Part shown: piece by piece, positions 23,284-37,687 of the stretch
Layout of the letters: every line of letters starts with the position of its first letter
Numbering within the stretch: the stretch's first letter is position 1
Source of the DNA: Myxococcus stipitatus
GTDB lineage: Bacteria; Myxococcota; Myxococcia; Myxococcales; Myxococcaceae
Assembly (NCBI RefSeq): GCF_021412625.1
Contig: NZ_JAKCFI010000001.1
Coordinates: 1,240,001-1,304,000, forward strand
Length of the DNA stretch: 64,000 bases
Direction of reading: 5' to 3'
Notes under the pieces: generated by a model
The model's input: the letters and a program-made list of their open reading frames with translations, nothing else
Told to the model about the DNA's origin: nothing
The model's database searches: none
Made by a program: the position numbers and the translations under genes

Positions 23284-23501
23284 CGCCGCTGTCATCCCCC
23301 TCTCCGTGTTTCGTCGGGGGCGAGTGTCAACCCCTGGTCACTGGTGTTTGGAGTGTCAGGTAACTCTTTGGTTTCACAGAGTTTTCCGTGCTAGGACGCC
23401 CGCCAGTCAGTGGGAGTCGGGCAAGCGGCGTGCTCGGAGGACCAGGGTGCGAGTCTTGCAATGGGGTGGCGCCCCGTTGGCCAAGTCACAGGAGTCCAGG
23501 C

Positions 23502-24896
23502 GTGTTCAGTCGTCTCCAGCGCTTCTACACGTCCATCAAGATCGTGGCGGACATGGTGATGCTCGCGATGGCGTTCGGCCTCGCGTACGTGACGCGTTTC
23601 TCCGGCATCGTCCCGGTGACGGAGGGCATCCCTCCCTGGGAGGACACGCTCATCTCCCTGTTGATGGTGCTGGTCATCTTCCCGGTGACGTTCAAGCAGG
23701 GGCGCCTGTACGAGACGAACCGCTCCCGCACGAACACCCGCGAGGTGTTCGAGGTCTTCAAGTCCACCATCACCGCGACGCTCATCCTCGTGGCGCTGAC
23801 GTACTTCGCGCGTGAGCGCTACTCGCGCCTGACGCTGGCCATCTTCGTCGTCTACTCGTTCGTCCTGGTGTCGTGCAGCCGTCTGGCGTTCCGCTACGTG
23901 CTCAGCGAGGTGCGGCGCCGGGGCCACAACCTCAAGTCCATCCTGGTCATCGGCGCGGGGGAGCTGGGGCAGCGGGTCATCGAGACGGTGGAGGGCCACC
24001 TGGAGCTGGGCTTCCGCGTGACGGGCGTCCTGACACTGCGCCAGGAGAAGGTCGGACAATATGTCCATGGCGTGCGGGTCGTGGGCCACGTGGACGACGT
24101 GGCGCGGGTGCTCGACGCGCAGCCGGTGGACCAGGTCATCCTCGCGCTGCCGTTGGAGGACCAGGCCCACGTCAAGCCGCTGATGGAGCAGCTGGCGCTG
24201 CGCACGGTGGACGTGAGGGTGGTGCCGGACCTGTACCAGTACATCACCCTCTACGGAGGGCTGGAGGAGTTCGGCGGCCTGCCCATCATCCGCCTCCAGG
24301 GCGACCCCATGGAGGGCTGGAGCCGCGTGGCCAAGCGCGCCTTCGACATCCTCTTCTCGCTGCTGGCCATCCTCGTCACCGCGCCCCTCATGGTGGGCAC
24401 CGCGGTGGCGGTGTGGCTCACCAGCCGCGGGCCGCTGCTCTACCGGCAGGAGCGCATGGGGATGGACGGGAGCACCTTCCACATCCTCAAGTTCCGCACC
24501 ATGCGCGTGGACGCGGAGCTCGGCGGCGCGATGATGGCGCGCAAGGACGACCCCCGGCGCACCACCATCGGCACCTTCCTGCGCAAGTACTCGCTGGACG
24601 AGCTGCCCCAGTTCTTCAACGTGCTGCGCGGGGACATGAGCCTGGTGGGCCCGCGTCCCGAGCGCCCCGTCTTCATCGAGGAGTTCAAGCGGCAGATTCC
24701 GCGCTACCACCTGCGGCACAAGGTGAAGGCGGGCATCACCGGCTGGGCGCAGATCAACGGCCTGCGCGGCCAGACGTGCATCGAGAAGCGCATCGAGTAC
24801 GACCTGTACTACATCGAGAACTGGTCGCTGCTGATGGACCTGAAGATCCTCGTGCGCACGGCGCTGGGCGGCTTCCTGTCGAAGAACGCGTACTGA
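23502..24896 (+). CDS. wbaP: Undecaprenyl-phosphate sugar-phosphate transferase (WbaP/EpsE-type initiator)
   Basis: Polyprenyl-phosphate hexose-1-phosphate transferase, 464 residues; it starts a surface polysaccharide by loading the first sugar-phosphate onto undecaprenyl phosphate. Order: four N-terminal helices, a CoA-binding-like Rossmann domain (SILVIGAGELGQRVIETVEG), a fifth helix (KRAFDILFSLLAILVT), then the catalytic domain with LLYRQERMGMDG, LKFRTMR, DELPQFFNVLRGDMSLVGPR and KAGITGWAQINGLRG. Start GTG 23502 has GGAG 7 nt upstream; the frame from 23388 extends it without support. Together with the ligase and two glycosyltransferases it resembles what I remember of the M. xanthus O-antigen locus holding waaL and wbaP, so the symbol is by analogy. 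An exopolysaccharide role is the alternative. Confidence 0.85.
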   Translation: MFSRLQRFYTSIKIVADMVMLAMAFGLAYVTRFSGIVPVTEGIPPWEDTLISLLMVLVIFPVTFKQGRLYETNRSRTNTREVFEVFKSTITATLILVALTYFARERYSRLTLAIFVVYSFVLVSCSRLAFRYVLSEVRRRGHNLKSILVIGAGELGQRVIETVEGHLELGFRVTGVLTLRQEKVGQYVHGVRVVGHVDDVARVLDAQPVDQVILALPLEDQAHVKPLMEQLALRTVDVRVVPDLYQYITLYGGLEEFGGLPIIRLQGDPMEGWSRVAKRAFDILFSLLAILVTAPLMVGTAVAVWLTSRGPLLYRQERMGMDGSTFHILKFRTMRVDAELGGAMMARKDDPRRTTIGTFLRKYSLDELPQFFNVLRGDMSLVGPRPERPVFIEEFKRQIPRYHLRHKVKAGITGWAQINGLRGQTCIEKRIEYDLYYIENWSLLMDLKILVRTALGGFLSKNAY

Positions 24897-24946: not shown

Positions 24947-26869
24947 CTACTGGATGTCCCAGACCGCGTTGCCCGAGCACGCGGTGTTTCCGTAGCAGCC
25001 GATGCGCACCTGCACGCTGCCGGTCCGCGGGGCCGTGTACGTGAGGAGGCTGCCCCGGCCGCTGCACGCGTCGTCGTTGAAGGCCACCTCGACGCCCGCG
25101 CTGAACAGCCGCAGATAGGTGTCGCCGGTGAAGCGGGAGTCCGGCTGGCCGCAGGTGCCCACGGTGAGGACCTGGCCCGCGGTCAGCGACAGCTCCCGGT
25201 TGGCCGTCGCCTGCTGGGCGAAGTTGGTGTTCACGACGTCGAAGGCGAAGCTGCCGTGCAGGGGCGACGGTGGCTGCTGGCCGCCGGTCAGCTCCCAGAC
25301 GACGGTGCCCGAGCAGCTCCCATTGGAGTAGCAGCCGGCCCGGACCTCGTACTCGCCGGTGGTGGTGGCGGTGAACACGAGGCTGGAGCCCCGGCCGCCG
25401 CAGGCGTCGTCGTTGCTGGCGACGGGGACGCCTGCGGGGCTGACGAGGCGCAGGAAACTATCGCCGCTCACCTTCGCGCCCGTCAGGCCGCACGTGCCCA
25501 GGGCGAGCGACTGTCCGGCGCCGAGGACGAGCTTTCTGTTGGTGGTGTTCTGCTGGGCGCTGTTGGTGTTGGTGGCGGTGAAGGGGAAGGCGTTGGGCGC
25601 GGGGTTGGGTGACGGGGGCGGCGCTCCCGTGCCCGCGGGGTCGGGGCAGCCCGCCGAGGGCAGGGCGCACGCCGGGAGGTTCGCTCCCAGGTGACCGATG
25701 ATGGCCTGGATGGGGACGCCCCGGTTGGGACAGTCCGCGCAGTGGTGCAGCGCCACCACCAGGTTGTCCGCGTAGCCGAGGACGGGCGCGCCGGAGGAGC
25801 CCCCCTGGGTGTCGGCGAAGTAGCCCACGTCGTTGGGGCCTCCCGTCTGGCAGGAGGGCTCGGTGAGGCTGTAGACCTCCGCGAAGCCGGAGGCGTCCGC
25901 GCTGGCCGTCGAGCGCATGGCGATCTTCTTTCCGTAGCCCGCGGGGTGCTGCGGCACGTAGATGCGCTCGTCCACCACCGCGCCCTGGGCCCTGAGCTGG
26001 AGGTAGCCGAAGCTGGCGGTGGGGTTCACCGGCAGCCGCACGAGCGCGTAGTCGCGAGGGGCGTCGGCCTGGACCAGCGTGGCGCCGGAGATGACGTGGC
26101 CCGGGCAGCCCATCCAGTTCGCGCACGACGTCGCGCAGGCGGAGCCCTCCGCCAGGAACTCGAAGTCCGTGTTCGCCGCGTCCTCCGCGGAGCCGATGCA
26201 GTGCTGGTTGGTCAGGACATGGCCCTGGCTCCCCACCAGCCAGCCGGTGCAGGCGGTGTTGCCGTTGATGAGCAGGCGGGCGACCGTCCGCGCGCGGGCG
26301 TAGAGGATGGGGTGCGAGGAACCGAGGCAGGGCGCCCAGTCGGTATCGTCCGCGCCACAGACGGCCTCGGTGATTCCGGGGAACAGGCCTCGCTCCGCGT
26401 TGGAGTAGCCCCGCGCGTACTGGTCGATGCGGTAGCCGAACGCGTCGCGGGGACCGGGGGCGCCATGCAGCTCGACGATGGCGGTGTCACCGGGGATGTG
26501 CATCGCCCAGAAGCCAGCGCGGGTGCCCGGCGGAGGCGCGTCGTAGCGCCGCGCGCGGCGGCCATCCGGGGAGCGCACCACGACGAAGTCTCCGTCCGCC
26601 AGCTCCAGTCGCTCGAAGTGCGCGGCGATGTAGCTGGCGCCCGGGTGATGGAGGGTGTCCGAGTGGAGCAGCCCCGTCGCGTTGGGGGCCACGTCGTCGC
26701 CCGTGTAGGGGTGGGGTGTCTCGAAGCGCTGGTGGTGGGTCTGGCCCACCTGGCTGGCCCGTTGGGAGGCGGGGGCCGGAGGCGCCTGGCACACGGGACC
26801 GGAAGCCCGCGCGGCCGGTGCGCCGAGCGACAACGCGACCACGAGACTCACGAGCAGGGAGGGGGACAT
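24947..26869 (-). CDS. Secreted trypsin-like serine protease with two C-terminal PPC domains
   Basis: 640-residue exported protease. Signal peptide ends near residue 22 (AARA-SG). The catalytic triad is visible: H223 in LTNQHCIG, D273 in PRDYALVRLP, S359 in TQGGSSGAPVLG. The Cys-rich protease core has the look of lysyl endopeptidase/V8-like enzymes. After a Pro-rich linker (residues ~408-428) come two tandem bacterial pre-peptidase C-terminal beta domains (about 430-540 and 545-640), each with an SFLRLVSP/TYLRLFSA strand and an NDDAC turn. These domains are usually linked to secretion and often removed. Start ATG 26869 follows GAGGAG. Likely part of the predatory or nutritional secretome; specificity not predictable. 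Confidence 0.85.
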   Translation of the reverse strand: MSPSLLVSLVVALSLGAPAARASGPVCQAPPAPASQRASQVGQTHHQRFETPHPYTGDDVAPNATGLLHSDTLHHPGASYIAAHFERLELADGDFVVVRSPDGRRARRYDAPPPGTRAGFWAMHIPGDTAIVELHGAPGPRDAFGYRIDQYARGYSNAERGLFPGITEAVCGADDTDWAPCLGSSHPILYARARTVARLLINGNTACTGWLVGSQGHVLTNQHCIGSAEDAANTDFEFLAEGSACATSCANWMGCPGHVISGATLVQADAPRDYALVRLPVNPTASFGYLQLRAQGAVVDERIYVPQHPAGYGKKIAMRSTASADASGFAEVYSLTEPSCQTGGPNDVGYFADTQGGSSGAPVLGYADNLVVALHHCADCPNRGVPIQAIIGHLGANLPACALPSAGCPDPAGTGAPPPSPNPAPNAFPFTATNTNSAQQNTTNRKLVLGAGQSLALGTCGLTGAKVSGDSFLRLVSPAGVPVASNDDACGGRGSSLVFTATTTGEYEVRAGCYSNGSCSGTVVWELTGGQQPPSPLHGSFAFDVVNTNFAQQATANRELSLTAGQVLTVGTCGQPDSRFTGDTYLRLFSAGVEVAFNDDACSGRGSLLTYTAPRTGSVQVRIGCYGNTACSGNAVWDIQ

Positions 26870-27193: not shown

Positions 27194-30100
27194 ATGGCCG
27201 AAAAGCTCGGAGCGATCCTGGTCCGCAAGGGCCTCATCACGCAGGCGCAGCTCGACGAAGCCCTCAAGGCCCAGCTCATCTACGGTGGGCGGCTGGGCTC
27301 CATCCTCGTCGAACTGGACATCCTCGACATCGACACCCTGGCCATGGTGCTGGGGGAGCAGACGCGCTTCCCCGTCGCGCAGGATGCGGACTTCGATGCC
27401 GTCACGGACGCGACCTTGACGTTGCTGCCCGCGGCCCTGGCGGAGAAGCATCTGGCGTTTCCGCTCGCGCAGGAGGGCCGGCGCCTGAAGGTGGCCATGT
27501 CGAGCCCCTTCGAAATCCAGCACACGGATGCGCTGGGCTTCATCACGGGCATGCGCATCATCCCGTTCATCACCCCCGAGCTGCGCCTGTTCCGCAACCA
27601 GGCGAAGCGCTACGGCATTCATCGCGAGTCGCGGTTGGGACAGGTGGCCGCGGCGAAGCGAGCGCAGATGAAGAGTCTGGGGCCCGCGGCCGCGGCGCCT
27701 GGCGGCCGGTTCATGGACCCGGGGTTGGCGCCTCCGCCCGCGCCCGTCAGGGCGGCCCTGGGGGCCGAGGGCATGTTCGGCGGTCTGGCTCCGGGGCAGT
27801 TCCTGAGCGACGACGCGGAGGAGGCGAGCGCCGAGGAGACGCCGTGGACGGCTCCGGCCGTCTCCGCGCCTCCGACGTTGACCGCGGAGCCTCCGGTGCT
27901 CACGGCCAGCGCGCCTCGTCCCGCGGCGCCGCCGCAGCTCGCGCCCCAGCCCGTGGGTCGTGGCCCCGCGGTGGGGCGGCCCGAGTCCCCGCCGCGCCTC
28001 GCGGCCACGGAGCCGCCTCGGCTGGCTCCGCCCGTGATGGCGCCTGCGCTGGACATCGTGGAGGAGCTCGAGCCCGAGGAGGAGATCGAACCCACCGAGG
28101 AGCTCGACGTCATGGACGCCGAGGAGGTGGTGGAGGGCGTGGAGGAAGCGTCCGTGCCCGTGCCGCCCCTTCGCGCCGCCCCGGCGATGCCTCCGCCCGA
28201 GCGAGGCGAGGGGCAGGGCGCGTCCGCGACGCAGCCACCAGGGTTGGTCTCGCGCCAGCCGCAGGGGCAGTGGTCGCCGCATCCGTCCGCGCCAGGGGCG
28301 CGCAATCTCGCGACGCCACCGCTGGGCGCCCCGCGACCCGTGGGGGCGGAGGGGGCGTTGCCTCCACCGGGCTCGATTCCTCCCGGGATGACCGGGGCTG
28401 GAGCGCGCCCTCCTCCGGGAGTGGGACAGCCCGTTGCCTCGGGGCCGCCGGGCGTGGTTGCGAGGGCCGGGGCTCCGTCCTCTCCGGGGGCTGTGCCCCC
28501 AGGCATGGTGTCACCGCGTGGACCGGGCGCTGGGATGCCACCGCTCGCGCAGCCGATGCCCGTGGTGGGCGCGCCAGGTGGAGCGGGTGTCGCGCGTTCA
28601 TCGGGGCCGGGAGGGAGTGGTTCGGCGCGGCCGCCAGGGGTTGGTGGGAGTTCGCCTGTGCCGGGTGGGCCAGCCGCGATGCGGGGGCCTCCGGGCATGC
28701 AGGGAGGCATTCCTGGGGTGCCTACAGCCCAGGGCGCTGGGACGCCAGCAGGTGCGCCCATGCCGCCGGGAACCCAAGGCGTTTCGGGAGCGGGAGGCCC
28801 GGGTGGTGTGCCGAAGGCGCCCGCGTCTCCGAGCGGACCGGTGGCGCGACGGCCGAGCGGATCGTCGCCAGTGGTGGGGGCCTCGGTGCCTGCGGGAGCG
28901 CCGGGTGGTCTCATGCCGGGCGTGGCGGGAGCGGTCGGGCCGAGCGCCGGAGTATCGGTGCCGCCGACGCCAGTGGGAGCGCCGGGTGGCCCCATGGCGG
29001 GGGCGGTCGGGCCGAGCGCCGGAGTATCTGTGCCGCCGACGCCAGTGGGAGCGCCGAGCGGGTCCACGCAGATTCCGGTGAGCATGGCTGGACCGCCCGT
29101 GTCTGCAGGCGCGGTGACGCCTGGGGCGTCGAGCAGCGCGCCAGTGCCGGTGGGGGCCGTGGCGCCGGGCAACCCTTCGGTCGCGAGTGGTGGTCCCGCG
29201 TCGCTGGTTCCGGCGGCAGGGGGGGCCATTCCTCTGGCCTCGGGGCCCAGCGCGCCTCCAGCCGGAGTGGCGGGCCCCACACCTTCGACGCTCGTGCCGC
29301 CGTCGCCCGGAGTCCGGACCGTTCCGGGGCCGGCTGTCGGTGCCCCCAATGCGCAGCAGGGCGGCCCGGGACGTCCTGGCCCTCAGGCCCGAGTTCCTCC
29401 AGGAATGATGCCCCCGGGCTCGCGGCCACCCTCCGCGACCGGCATTCCCACCGTGGGAGGCCCGTCTGTTCCCACTCCCCCTGGGATGGTGGGCGCGCGA
29501 CCTCCGTCGGCGACAGGCATTCCCGCGGTCCCGGGGCCGCACGGCCCTGTTCCTCCAGGGATGCATGCTGCGGTTCCTGGGATGCGTCCTCCTCCTCCGG
29601 GAGCGCCTGGGCCGCACGGCCCCGTGCCTCCGGGGATGACAGGCATGCGGCCTCCGATGACGGCCGCCCCCGCTGCACCAGGGCCTCTGGGGCCGCCTCC
29701 TGGCCCTGGGCGACCGCCGCCGGGAATGGGACCGCCGATGGGGCCTCCGGGAGCCGCTCCGAGACCTCCTCCGGGTGGGCCACTGCCTCCTGGGATGACT
29801 CGCGCGATGCCCCCCGGCGCGCCAGGTGCGCACCCAGGTGGCTCGGCACCCAGAGGGGGACCTTCGGGGCCGCCGTCGGGGACCATTCCCGCCATCGGGC
29901 CCGCGTCGGGTGGGGGCACGCCCGTGCCCGTTCAGGGTGGCTCCGTCGGCGGGACTCCGCCGGAGGGCGGTGATGCCATCCTGGCACGAGGTCAGGAGGG
30001 TGGTGCGCCGTCGGCAGTCGAGCCGCCTCCGAGCGGCGGGGCGCGACAGGAAACCACTGCCCTCTCCGAAGCAGGGACCACGGCTCCCTCCGAAGGGGAG

Positions 30101-32635
30101 TCGCTCGCGCCGGTATCCCTGTCGGAGAGCGTGGTGGAGTCGGAGGGCTCCCCGAGGACGGAGCCCACGGCAGTGCCAGAGGCTACGCGTCTGGACGAAC
30201 CGACCGAGCTCCTGGGCATCCATTCCCCAGTCCAGGCGGAGACGGCCTCCTCGGATATTCCGATTTCGGAGCAACCTGATTCTGTCCTGGCGACAGAGGG
30301 GACCACGGCGGCCGTCGAGAGCCCGTCATCTGGCGAAGTGTCCGCGGGCGATGCTGGCGCGACGCTGCTCGATACGGGCGCCACCGCGACGACAGAAGCC
30401 GCCGTCGAGGTGGTGTATGCCGTCGAGCCATCGACGCAGCAAGACGGCGCGAAGGTGTCGGCTGTCGCTGAGCCTGTGGCCGCAAACCCGGTTCTCGAGC
30501 TGTCCGTCGGACCTCACGCCGAGTTCGAAACCGCGACCGGGCTCGAAGAGGCCGTCGAGCCTCTCTCCAAGACCGATGCCGCGCCGAGCGACGCGCTAGC
30601 GCCCGAGCACCCGCAAGACGCGCAAGGCTCTGGAACACCACCGCGCGAGACGGTCTCGCCGAGCGACGAGGCGGTCCTCTCGCGGGGGGCCGTCGAGGTT
30701 CTTCCCGAGGATGCCAATCCCCCAGCGGGGGAGGGAGCCCGAGCGGAAGCCGGGGCGGCATCCGGTTCGGCAGTGCTGGCGGATGGCGATGAGTCCCGAA
30801 AGCGCGTGGCCTCGGTGTCCGCGCCCGCGAGCGACGTCGAGGCGCCATCGGTTTCCGTGCCACCCGGACACGTGGACGTGGCCGCACCGACTGAGGCCAT
30901 GTCGCCACCAGCTCTGGTGGCCGAGCCTTCGCCCGCGAACACTGCGGTCCACGGCGAGGAGTCCCAGCCCGAGTCCCTCCAACTCGTCGAGCCCTCTGGA
31001 ACCGGCGCCATCACCGAGGCGGGGCGTGTCTCCGAGGCAACGGGCTCGTCGGCCGAAGTCGCCGAAGCGGTGGAGCCCGCGGCGGTGGTCGCGGAAGAGA
31101 CCGCCGCGCTCCCGGCGCAGGAGACTCCCTCCGGCGGTGGTGTGACCGACGCCTTGCCCATGTCGGAGGAAGACAATCTCCCCGCATTCGGCTTCACCGC
31201 GGAGGCGGTCGCGTTGCCCGAGCCGAAGGCCGCGACCTTCGAGGAGCCCGTGGCCGTCTCCTCGAGGCCCGCGTCGGAGGAGTCGTGGTCCATTGTCCGC
31301 GCTCCGGAGGGTGCTCGCGTCGAGGGCGCGTCGGATGTGGTGGCGCTGGATGCGCGGGCGTCTGCGCAGCCCCCTGGGGAAGAATCTGGCGACGCGCTCA
31401 ACCTGGAGGCCGCGGGGACCTTCCTGGCTTCGCACGGCGAATCCGTGGCGAACCTCGCCGCGAAGGAGCCCTCCCGTGAGGTGTCGACACCTCCCTCCCG
31501 CACGGAGGGCACAGGCGCTCCCGAGTCGCCGCCGAGCCCCGGAGCCGAAGCCGTCCACACGCCAGAGGCATCGCGCGAGCGGCGACTCGACACCGCCACG
31601 GGCCCGGCCGAGGACGTGGCCTCGGAACAGTCCTTCGCGGCCGTTCCCGATGCCCGACCCGAGCCGGAGTCCAGCGGGTCGTCGCCACACCTGACGCTCG
31701 TCAGCGCGGAGCCCTCGGTGGAGTCGACCGGGGACGCCGCGGCCTCCCGCTCCACCGAGACTCCGGGGGAGGTGTCCGAGTTGTCTCCCTCGACAGCCCC
31801 AGCGCCCGTGGTCCCCACGCGGCGCGCGCCCATCGAACTGGACGAGCTTCCTCCCGCTGAAGACTCGCCGATGCAGCTCGCGTCGACCTGGGAGTTCGTG
31901 GGTTGGCAGGGCACGGACGGCAACACGTCCATCGGTCATTCACCGGAGTCGACGTGGGCGGATCGGACCGTCGACATCGATGGCCCTCTCGTGCGTGAGC
32001 CTGCCGTGGAGACGCCGTCGGGCGAGCTGCCGCTGGCCTCGGCATGGGACTTCATCCCGCGGCAGTCCTGGCAGGCGCCGTCCGAGCACTCCGAGGTCCT
32101 CACCTCGCTGCTGTCGGCGGCCACGTCCGCCGCCAACGCGGAGCAGGGGCAGCCCGCCGTGACGGTGGAGCACGTGCTGTCCGCGATGGAGACCGTCGCG
32201 ACCCAGAACACGCTCGGCAAGGTGTTGATCGCCTACTGCACGGGCCGCTTCCAGCGGGCCTTCCTCCTGGGCGAGAGCTTCGGTCTCGTGCGCGTGGGGC
32301 ACGCGTGGGGGCCCGGGAGCGACAGCCCGGCGGTGTCCTCCCTCAAGGTCGACCTCGACGTTCCGTCGCTGCTCGTGGCTTCGTTGGGCCGCCTGGGGCC
32401 GAGCAGCTTCGAGACGCCCTCGTGCGCGCAGGACGAGGCCATCTTCTCCTCGCTCGGTGGGCCGTCGTCGCGGCTGGTGGTCGTCCCCATCCGCGCGCGC
32501 GGCCGGCCCGTGGCCTTCGTCGTCGCCGACCCCGGGACCGAACCCCTGGGCGAGGGGGCGTACGAGGAACTCACCCGCGTGGCCGTGAAGGCCGCGGAGA
32601 CCTACGACCGCCTGCCCGCGTCCCGCGCGGACTGA
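27194..32635 (+). CDS. Giant protein: GspE N-terminal domain, very long Pro/Gly-rich and acidic middle, folded C-terminal domain
   Basis: 1813 residues of unknown function. Residues ~1-160 are a GspE-II/MshE N-terminal domain (KLGAILVRKGLITQAQLDEA, then a second helical half with LPAALAEKHLAFPLAQEG); such domains bind c-di-GMP or dock on secretion ATPases, but no ATPase follows. Residues ~160-940 are Pro/Gly/Ala-rich with many PPGM-type repeats. About 940-1640 is a Glu/Ala/Ser/Val-rich disordered stretch. The last ~180 residues look folded (VEHVLSAMETVATQ, then RFQRAFLLGESFGLVRVG and RLVVVPIRARGRPVAFVV), resembling a GAF-like sensor. Two near-identical blocks, LASTWEFVG and LASAWDFIP, precede it. 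Start ATG 27194; the frame open from 25691 is a shadow over the protease. No transmembrane helix or signal peptide. Confidence 0.72.
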   Translation: MAEKLGAILVRKGLITQAQLDEALKAQLIYGGRLGSILVELDILDIDTLAMVLGEQTRFPVAQDADFDAVTDATLTLLPAALAEKHLAFPLAQEGRRLKVAMSSPFEIQHTDALGFITGMRIIPFITPELRLFRNQAKRYGIHRESRLGQVAAAKRAQMKSLGPAAAAPGGRFMDPGLAPPPAPVRAALGAEGMFGGLAPGQFLSDDAEEASAEETPWTAPAVSAPPTLTAEPPVLTASAPRPAAPPQLAPQPVGRGPAVGRPESPPRLAATEPPRLAPPVMAPALDIVEELEPEEEIEPTEELDVMDAEEVVEGVEEASVPVPPLRAAPAMPPPERGEGQGASATQPPGLVSRQPQGQWSPHPSAPGARNLATPPLGAPRPVGAEGALPPPGSIPPGMTGAGARPPPGVGQPVASGPPGVVARAGAPSSPGAVPPGMVSPRGPGAGMPPLAQPMPVVGAPGGAGVARSSGPGGSGSARPPGVGGSSPVPGGPAAMRGPPGMQGGIPGVPTAQGAGTPAGAPMPPGTQGVSGAGGPGGVPKAPASPSGPVARRPSGSSPVVGASVPAGAPGGLMPGVAGAVGPSAGVSVPPTPVGAPGGPMAGAVGPSAGVSVPPTPVGAPSGSTQIPVSMAGPPVSAGAVTPGASSSAPVPVGAVAPGNPSVASGGPASLVPAAGGAIPLASGPSAPPAGVAGPTPSTLVPPSPGVRTVPGPAVGAPNAQQGGPGRPGPQARVPPGMMPPGSRPPSATGIPTVGGPSVPTPPGMVGARPPSATGIPAVPGPHGPVPPGMHAAVPGMRPPPPGAPGPHGPVPPGMTGMRPPMTAAPAAPGPLGPPPGPGRPPPGMGPPMGPPGAAPRPPPGGPLPPGMTRAMPPGAPGAHPGGSAPRGGPSGPPSGTIPAIGPASGGGTPVPVQGGSVGGTPPEGGDAILARGQEGGAPSAVEPPPSGGARQETTALSEAGTTAPSEGESLAPVSLSESVVESEGSPRTEPTAVPEATRLDEPTELLGIHSPVQAETASSDIPISEQPDSVLATEGTTAAVESPSSGEVSAGDAGATLLDTGATATTEAAVEVVYAVEPSTQQDGAKVSAVAEPVAANPVLELSVGPHAEFETATGLEEAVEPLSKTDAAPSDALAPEHPQDAQGSGTPPRETVSPSDEAVLSRGAVEVLPEDANPPAGEGARAEAGAASGSAVLADGDESRKRVASVSAPASDVEAPSVSVPPGHVDVAAPTEAMSPPALVAEPSPANTAVHGEESQPESLQLVEPSGTGAITEAGRVSEATGSSAEVAEAVEPAAVVAEETAALPAQETPSGGGVTDALPMSEEDNLPAFGFTAEAVALPEPKAATFEEPVAVSSRPASEESWSIVRAPEGARVEGASDVVALDARASAQPPGEESGDALNLEAAGTFLASHGESVANLAAKEPSREVSTPPSRTEGTGAPESPPSPGAEAVHTPEASRERRLDTATGPAEDVASEQSFAAVPDARPEPESSGSSPHLTLVSAEPSVESTGDAAASRSTETPGEVSELSPSTAPAPVVPTRRAPIELDELPPAEDSPMQLASTWEFVGWQGTDGNTSIGHSPESTWADRTVDIDGPLVREPAVETPSGELPLASAWDFIPRQSWQAPSEHSEVLTSLLSAATSAANAEQGQPAVTVEHVLSAMETVATQNTLGKVLIAYCTGRFQRAFLLGESFGLVRVGHAWGPGSDSPAVSSLKVDLDVPSLLVASLGRLGPSSFETPSCAQDEAIFSSLGGPSSRLVVVPIRARGRPVAFVVADPGTEPLGEGAYEELTRVAVKAAETYDRLPASRAD
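28931..29056 (+). repeat. 72-nt-period tandem duplication in the Pro-rich region
   Basis: Two 54-nt copies (28931-28984 and 29003-29056) differ at one base; both encode AVGPSAGVSVPPTPVGAP. The near identity points to a recent in-frame slippage or recombination event. Confidence 0.8.
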
Positions 32636-32725: not shown

Positions 32726-35518
<2,793 letters not shown>

Positions 35519-36526: not shown

Positions 36527-37687
36527 CTAGCGCACGAACTCCCAGGCGTCCGTCCAGTGGCTGCCGGTGCCGGGGGCGTAGTAGGGCGCGGCGCCCTTGC
36601 ACCAGCCGGAGTAGGGGAAGGGCTTGCAGCGGTAGACGTGCCCGTCGGTGCCCTGCACGAGCGTGCCGGCGATGTAGCTGGCGAGCCCGTCGGGGTACGC
36701 GTACTGCGGCGTCTCGCCGCCGCCGGTGGGCTTCTCGATGTCGAGCTGGAAGGTGTCGCTGGCCTCGCGCGAGTAGACGCGGTTGGCGGTCGCGCTCTGC
36801 TCGGGGACGACGCCGCCGGAGGCTTGCAGCACGCCCACCTGGACGCGGCTGGACGTGCTGTTGACCCGCTGCGCGAGGTTGTACATCCACGTGGCCGCGG
36901 GCGTCGCGGCGCCGAGCGTCAGCGGGTGCGTCTCCGCGTCACCGCCGCCGCTGTTGAACACGCGCAGCGTCACCTTGCTCTGCGCGGGCAGGTCCTCGCG
37001 GGCCAGCACCGCGCCCAGCTCCTTCCAGGAGGTGGGCGGCGGCGGCGTGTCGCTGAACTTCACGTCGTTGCAGGCGTAGAAGGCCTCCGGGGAGTCCGAG
37101 CGCTGCCAGATGGTGTAGATGACGTGCGGCCCGGTGCGCCCCTGGGGGAACGGACAGGTGAAGCGGTAGCGGTTGTTCGTCGGGGCCGAGGGCGCCGTCA
37201 GCGTGCAGAAGGGCGCGTCCTCCAGGTCCGACCACTTCAACGGCCGCATGGGGTCGTAGCCCTCCTTCGTGACGTAGAGGTGGAAGTAGGCCGTGGCGTG
37301 CACGGCCGTGGCGTGGAAGACGAACTCGAACCGCCCGCTGGCGTCCGGGGCGATGAGCGTGGAGGGCCAGTCCGCGCGCGCCAGGTCCAGCCCCTTGTGG
37401 CTCTCGTTCGCCGCGCTGCACAGCTTGCCGTCCGGGATGAGCTCGCGGTGGCGGCCATTGGCCGCGCCCTGCCGCACGCCGTTCCAGTCATAGAGCGCCT
37501 GGGTGCCGCCCACCTGGATGGCGGCCTTGCACGCCGCGGACTTGGGCGTCTCCGGCCCCTCCTTGAAGCAGCTGTAGACGCGGCTGAGCGGGACCTCCAT
37601 GGAGCCGTGCGCCTGGGCCAGGCTCGCGGACAGCAGCGACAAGACGACGAGCGACGACGAGAGGGGCCTCTGGATTGCTGGGTGCAT
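36527..37687 (-). CDS. Lytic polysaccharide monooxygenase (AA10) with carbohydrate-binding C-terminus
   Basis: Secreted copper enzyme that oxidatively cleaves chitin or cellulose. The signal peptide ends SLAQA-H so that His27 becomes the mature N-terminus, as required. The second copper His is H130 in ATAVHATAYF, in the family TA-x-H motif; AFYACNDVKF supplies the axial Phe region. Domain order: AA10 (27-~215), a GbpA-like second beta domain (~225-335), and a C-terminal chitin-binding module of the CBM5/12 or CBM73 sort (~345-386: YRCKPFPYSGWCKG, WTDAWEFV). Length 386. Start ATG 37687 follows AGGAGGAAGGG. Predatory myxobacteria degrade polymers this way; chitin is the likelier substrate because of the GbpA-like layout. 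Confidence 0.88.
   Translation of the reverse strand: MHPAIQRPLSSSLVVLSLLSASLAQAHGSMEVPLSRVYSCFKEGPETPKSAACKAAIQVGGTQALYDWNGVRQGAANGRHRELIPDGKLCSAANESHKGLDLARADWPSTLIAPDASGRFEFVFHATAVHATAYFHLYVTKEGYDPMRPLKWSDLEDAPFCTLTAPSAPTNNRYRFTCPFPQGRTGPHVIYTIWQRSDSPEAFYACNDVKFSDTPPPPTSWKELGAVLAREDLPAQSKVTLRVFNSGGGDAETHPLTLGAATPAATWMYNLAQRVNSTSSRVQVGVLQASGGVVPEQSATANRVYSREASDTFQLDIEKPTGGGETPQYAYPDGLASYIAGTLVQGTDGHVYRCKPFPYSGWCKGAAPYYAPGTGSHWTDAWEFVR

Follow-up and report, generated by a model that had tools for sequence, protein, structure and literature searches.

A gene in the window, the 64,000-nucleotide stretch of Myxococcus stipitatus DNA analyzed here, encodes a 1,813-residue protein that joins an N-terminal MshEN domain to a C-terminal GAF-type domain through a disordered linker of about 1,400 residues. 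We read this protein as a multivalent tether that is, or formerly was, tuned by c-di-GMP, and not as part of a pilus or secretion motor. More fully, and held tentatively, the protein may be a flexible multivalent adaptor of the cytoplasm, with a c-di-GMP head, docking motifs, and a role in polysaccharide synthesis. In the literature searched, we found no published study of a protein that combines MshEN, a giant linker, and GAF.

One open reading frame joins the two folded ends

As the original prediction had it, the protein comes from a single frame. This frame is open from ATG to stop, without a frameshift. The domain order is MshEN (residues 1 to 146), the linker, a Trp block, and the GAF domain.

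27194..32635, + strand: whole gene, 1,813 aa, MshEN-disordered linker-Trp block-GAF (translation, in-frame orthologs, reading-frame test)

A longer frame of 2,314 aa was considered as the gene. The starts of the orthologs coincide at MAEKLG, and in several of them a stop lies a few codons upstream. Thus, the 2,314-aa frame is not the gene.

Because long open frames mean little in a GC-rich genome, we tested the frame of the linker directly. Every linker indel in two pairs of close orthologs was a multiple of 3 (12/12 and 21/21, 33 in total), and third codon positions changed most. This indicates that the linker is translated in the plus frame and joins both ends. Antisense linker frames, such as one of 576 aa at 27619-29349 on the minus strand, we read as GC-rich artifacts, since the plus frame fits both the indels and the codon-position changes.

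We found the two ends in one frame in 18 of the 19 same-genus loci that were fully read, with lengths of 1,611 to 2,492 residues. The remaining locus (L062) is frameshifted inside MshEN in its assembly. A frameshift between the domains, or a chimera, is ruled out by the frame that both ends share in the orthologs and by the 33 in-frame indels out of 33. The L062 ortholog (G017:C1) comes from a single-contig genome, and its frameshift is either an error or a real loss.

No ATPase family profile matched the protein at E values up to 10, in agreement with the prediction, and the protein is not classed as a GspE/PilB secretion ATPase. Near the gene, we found no sigma-70-like promoter or intrinsic-terminator pattern, and a plasmid search for signs of spread gave no match.

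The MshEN head and its c-di-GMP motifs

27194..27631, + strand: MshEN domain, residues 1 to 146 (PF05157, AF2 model, Foldseek top match 5htl)
27203..27274, + strand: c-di-GMP motif 1, residues 4 to 27, KLGAILVRKGLITQAQLDEALKAQ, Lys for Arg (NF053729; motif of PMC5013675)
27290..27361, + strand: c-di-GMP motif 2, residues 33 to 56, RLGSILVELDILDIDTLAMVLGEQ, turn Gly replaced by Asp42 (NF053729, ortholog comparison)

PF05157 matched residues 64 to 141 (E = 6.6e-15; 55.3 bits against a curated cut-off of 23.1), and the c-di-GMP motif model NF053729 matched residues 4 to 56 (52 bits; cut-off, 38). The AF2 model of residues 1 to 146 had a pLDDT mostly above 90, and its best Foldseek match was 5htl, MshE with c-di-GMP bound (E = 1.4e-10). 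The GspE-II/MshE N-domain had been expected from the sequence, and the model gives it an MshE-like fold. Foldseek also set the model beside PilB-PilZ complexes (7lko and 7lkm).

MshEN domains that bind c-di-GMP contain two 24-residue motifs, RLGxxhhxxGhhxxxxLxxxLxxQ, separated by a 5-residue spacer (PMC5013675). In the window protein, the spacer has the canonical 5 residues, the same as in VcMshE, and the direct contact residues are present, with Lys in place of the first Arg. Binders of high affinity are known that have Lys here (PMC11731258). Residue 42, at position 10 of motif 2, is Asp and lies outside the relaxed published motif, which admits Gly, Ala, or Ser. The turn Gly is described as needed for the helix turn and not as a ligand contact, and XpsE retains the MshEN fold without binding c-di-GMP (PMC5013675).

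Among the orthologs, the M. xanthus clade has Met instead of Gln56, and genus g31 has Leu (genus labels are arbitrary). In genera g8 and g32, Arg33 is replaced by Ser and Gln56 is also lost. The ortholog from genus g30 has both motifs complete except for the Lys for Arg. The motif 2 half-site has thus decayed repeatedly and independently in sister clades, and the domain itself is kept. This suggests that c-di-GMP binding is not a constant property of the protein. Binding by the window protein is plausible, judged by its nearly complete half-sites. With its departure from the published motif at Asp42 and the loss of its contact residues in several sister clades, motif 2 weakens the case for c-di-GMP responsiveness as the core function. 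Of the predicted c-di-GMP response, the MshE-like fold, the contacts, and the spacing stand, but Asp42 and the decay in sister clades count against it.

The C-terminal domain is predicted to have a GAF fold

32165..32611, + strand: GAF-type domain, about residues 1658 to 1806 (family profile matches, model, Foldseek, VIA-align)

We found no Pfam match for the C-terminal domain of the window protein itself. The GAF_2 profile matched 14 of 33 members of its family (best E, 2.5e-5). Among solved structures there was no close sequence relative, the best being the GAF domain 3oov (E = 0.13). The model of the domain had a pLDDT of 87 and a pTM of 0.84, and its top structure matches by Foldseek and VIA-align were GAF domains or GAF-containing chains. 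The best VIA-align match was a GAF domain of PtsP (Z = 16.3; rmsd, 3.1 Å; 151 aligned). From this model we confidently predict a GAF fold, consistent with the GAF-like folded end proposed earlier. The domain is 85% identical to that of M. dinghuensis, the nearest named relative, and 61% identical to that of M. xanthus AM003.

The linker carries conserved motifs and a conserved charge layout

27776..27808, + strand: conserved linear motif FGGLAPGQFLS, residues 195 to 205 (ortholog conservation)
28235..29797, + strand: PPG-hydrophobic array, residues 348 to 868, with 9 PPGM, 3 PPGV, and 1 PPGL (motif count versus shuffles)
29954..31813, + strand: acidic low-conservation linker, residues 921 to 1540, net charge -81 (composition, ortholog conservation)
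31814..32083, + strand: conserved Trp-rich block, residues 1541 to 1630, with RAPIELDELP, LASTWEFVGWQG, TWADRTVDIDG, and LASAWDFIPRQSWQ (ortholog conservation)

The original prediction put about 1,480 disordered residues between the two ends. The long unfolded stretch is there, but its length is nearer 1,400 residues, and the Trp block and the motif at residues 195 to 205 give it features of its own. Most of the linker is only 10 to 30% identical across orthologs, evolves fast, and has many indels. Its first part is rich in PPG (P, 26%; G, 18%), and PPGM-type repeats had been noticed in this region. We counted 9 copies of PPGM, against a shuffle mean of 0.16 and a shuffle maximum of 2. Each Myxococcus ortholog has 8 to 21 copies, against 0.1 to 0.3 in shuffles. 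Elsewhere there are 4 to 9 copies in g30 and g31, 1 to 3 in g8, and 0 to 2 in other genera. The array is thus confined to Myxococcus (g1) and the two related genera g30 and g31 and is otherwise rare or absent. The PPGM copies are encoded by mixed synonymous codons, which argues against recent DNA copying and, with their enrichment, points to selection on the motif. Local DNA duplication as their origin was rejected on the same ground and because the gene holds a single tandem repeat array, of 72 bp. Among the 100 of 193 PPGM-coding genome words that were listed, the window gene held the sole cluster with more than two copies. One other pair, at C1:558571, was set aside, since the frame there does not look coding.

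All Myxococcus orthologs read have FGGLxPGQFLS after MshEN, as do those of g30, g31, and g34 and one g33 copy. A looser form occurs in two other g33 copies, in g9, and in family f3. The Trp block, RAPIELDELP...LASTWEFVGWQG...TWADRxVDL...LASAWDFIxQPWQ, hardly varies within the genus, and each Myxococcus ortholog read has paired motifs of the LASTWEF...WQ and LASAWDF...WQ type. Searched at the protein level and with two narrow DNA patterns, the genome showed no credible copy of the block in a second protein.

The net charge is +22 over residues 341 to 920 and -81 over residues 921 to 1540, so the acidic stretch of the prediction is real. This layout is kept in the genus: the second half is strongly acidic, and the first is close to neutral in most copies. 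The conserved block charge is compatible with condensate formation but does not prove it.

The 13 PPG-hydrophobic sites fit the consensus for GYF ligands; PPG followed by a hydrophobic residue is the ligand of SMY2-type GYF domains (PMC12249416). The genome encodes five GYF_2-type proteins, four of them above the cut-off. Three (L066, L067, and L068) are strong GYF_2 proteins. All three appear to have a membrane segment and resemble one another at the C-terminal end, and two of them have an N-terminal Zn-ribbon-like stretch. Such GYF-domain membrane proteins are candidate partners of the PPGM array, which we regard as a lead. One GYF protein of the genome probably resembles GltJ of the gliding machinery. 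The cytosolic part of GltJ binds regulators.

MshEN-GAF proteins are widespread in Myxococcota

A search of 26 other genomes of the genus found the C-terminal domain in each. Of 195 Myxococcota genomes, 169 contained family members by its profile, as did 136 of the 149 of good quality. Within the order, MshEN lay in the same frame in 20 of 20 distant members that were read, and the same held at 35 of 40 further loci. Of the five loci without it, four begin at the end of a contig; the fifth is L126. Throughout much of the phylum, therefore, the GAF-type domain is present and almost always lies downstream of MshEN. Among the distant members, linkers measure between 14 and about 1,470 residues, and in the wider family between 14 and more than 2,000.

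GAF is absent from the g33, g34, and g9 orthologs, which finish in low-complexity sequence. The Trp motifs remain in these proteins (about three copies in g9). This suggests that the Trp motifs serve something other than, or beyond, GAF. The L162 ortholog is uninformative on GAF loss, as it is frame-broken in its assembly.

Three observations concern individual orthologs. The GAF-less L161 and L163 end in repeats of the TTAKYGT/TGKYGI type. L162 (G141) changes frame midway through the linker in its assembly and has two FGGLxPGQFLS motifs. L105 (BNCN01000003.1), a 2,439-aa ortholog, is titled "Comamonas sp. KCTC 72670," a label that looks wrong or contaminated.

The genome of the window contains 15 MshEN genes. 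Three encode MshEN-ATPases elsewhere in the genome (L001, L002, and L012), and two encode further MshEN-GAF paralogs (L006/L073, 492 aa, and L013/L072, 1,100 aa). L072 (G000:C4:10500-18500) has MshEN, a linker of about 460 residues, GAF, and about 360 extra residues that by eye resemble HEAT-type repeats. Similar proteins of about 1,100 aa occur in several genomes of the genus.

The gene lies between a phosphoglycosyl transferase and nrdJ

23388..24896, + strand: WbaP/WcaJ-type phosphoglycosyl transferase, with Bac_transf and CoA_binding_3 (domain matches, locus comparison)
24947..26869, - strand: trypsin-like protease with a PPC-like domain (domain matches, locus comparison)
32726..35518, - strand: class II (B12) ribonucleotide reductase nrdJ, convergent (domain matches, locus comparison)

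In nearly all loci, nrdJ lies downstream in convergent orientation, and the WbaP-like transferase lies upstream. The trypsin-like gene stands between the transferase and the scaffold gene in many but not all Myxococcus loci, including the window. The transferase directly adjoins the gene on the same strand in L058, L059, and L065 and in the g8, g32, g33, and g34 loci, with about 60 to 220 bp between alignment ends. A protein with LPMO_10 and GbpA_2, a lytic polysaccharide monooxygenase, is encoded near the locus at 36527-37687 on the minus strand.

By gene order, an O-antigen-ligase-type gene followed by the transferase, the transferase probably corresponds to M. xanthus MXAN_2922 (sgmK). MXAN_2922 is sgmK, an S motility gene (PMC4320627). 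In the literature searched, no paper found names MXAN_2919 or MXAN_2923-2925. Judged by gene neighborhood, a link to envelope polysaccharide synthesis is the most likely. The divergent protease gene that stands between the two in the window counts against such a link.

Possible mechanism and alternatives

According to our model, the MshEN head of the window protein would bind c-di-GMP, both half-sites being nearly complete, and binding would alter the exposure of the head or its partner. The Trp motifs and FGGLxPGQFLS may dock a conserved partner. The PPGM array may recruit a module that binds PPG-hydrophobic sites, for which the GYF-domain membrane proteins are the obvious candidates. GAF may provide a second input or dimerization and would be dispensable in some genera. 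The process served would be envelope polysaccharide synthesis at the neighboring WbaP-like enzyme. If so, c-di-GMP could act here on a pathway about whose post-translational control little is understood. A stronger version, which we regard as a long shot, is a second-messenger-gated scaffold in which c-di-GMP on MshEN would regulate a disordered arm of GYF sites and Trp motifs and so gather or activate the polysaccharide-initiating enzyme. Such a scaffold in a bacterium would have a modular design known mainly from eukaryotic signaling.

It is unlikely, though a serious contender, that c-di-GMP has become unnecessary to the head, which would dock proteins much as the PilB N-domain docks PilZ, and that the protein is a constitutive tether. 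The independent decay of the second half-site in clades that keep the domain, the placing of the model beside the PilB-PilZ complexes, and the precedent of XpsE speak for this. However, the window protein has the contacts with exact spacing, its Lys is found in high-affinity binders (PMC11731258), and the g30 copy is complete save for that Lys. The linker could also be a weakly constrained spacer, with repeats that are by-products of GC-rich slippage, as its low identity, numerous indels, enormous length range, and 72-bp tandem repeat would allow. We consider this improbable given the different synonymous codons among the PPGM copies, their enrichment in every genus ortholog, and the conservation of two motif classes and the charge layout.

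The original prediction also offered docking to pilus or secretion machinery. In a specific form of this idea, the N-domain, which is of the motor type, would dock the protein to a type IV pilus or a type II secretion system. PilB and GspE do share this domain family, but the protein has no ATPase domain, and the three MshEN-ATPases are encoded elsewhere. The stable neighbors in the compared loci are polysaccharide and nucleotide genes (the transferase and nrdJ), and nothing ties the locus to such a machine. We found this the least probable account. An adaptor with docking motifs remains our preferred, tentative reading, in line with the scaffold of the original prediction, since conserved motifs in repeated copies are expected of a scaffold. 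The sister clades form a natural series, with and without the PPGM array, with and without GAF, and with intact or decayed half-sites, in which each part could be tested.

Comparison with known systems

In M. xanthus, 22 MshEN proteins have been reported, many more than in most bacteria, and MshEN with varied partners is already known in myxobacteria (PMC5013675). Most of these proteins are unexplained, and the family described here suggests that a good share are adaptors and not motors. In the literature searched, MshEN was not found joined to a GAF-type partner by a giant linker that bears motifs.

The window protein resembles the c-di-GMP receptor domain PF05157 in fold, in its 53-residue double motif with exact spacing, and in its contact residues. 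It differs in that no ATPase comes after the domain, the turn Gly of motif 2 is replaced by Asp, and motif 1 has Lys for Arg. The paralogs L006/L073 and L013/L072 share both folded domains and their order with the window protein, but the window linker is roughly three to nine times longer and carries the PPGM array and Trp block. L072 also differs in its residues beyond GAF. FrgA of M. xanthus consists of MshEN and an uncharacterized domain (PMC5013675). Compared by description only, it is alike in joining MshEN to uncharacterized myxobacterial sequence; its own feature is that it is required for swarming and fruiting.

The window MshEN matches NfrB models over their MshEN part. NfrB, a c-di-GMP-activated glycosyltransferase, likewise links MshEN to glycan synthesis, but there the sensor and enzyme are one protein, whereas at the window locus the enzyme is a gene neighbor. 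The eukaryotic GYF-ligand proteins TNRC6A and ZNF598 share with the window protein PPG followed by a hydrophobic residue, a likeness known here from sequence.
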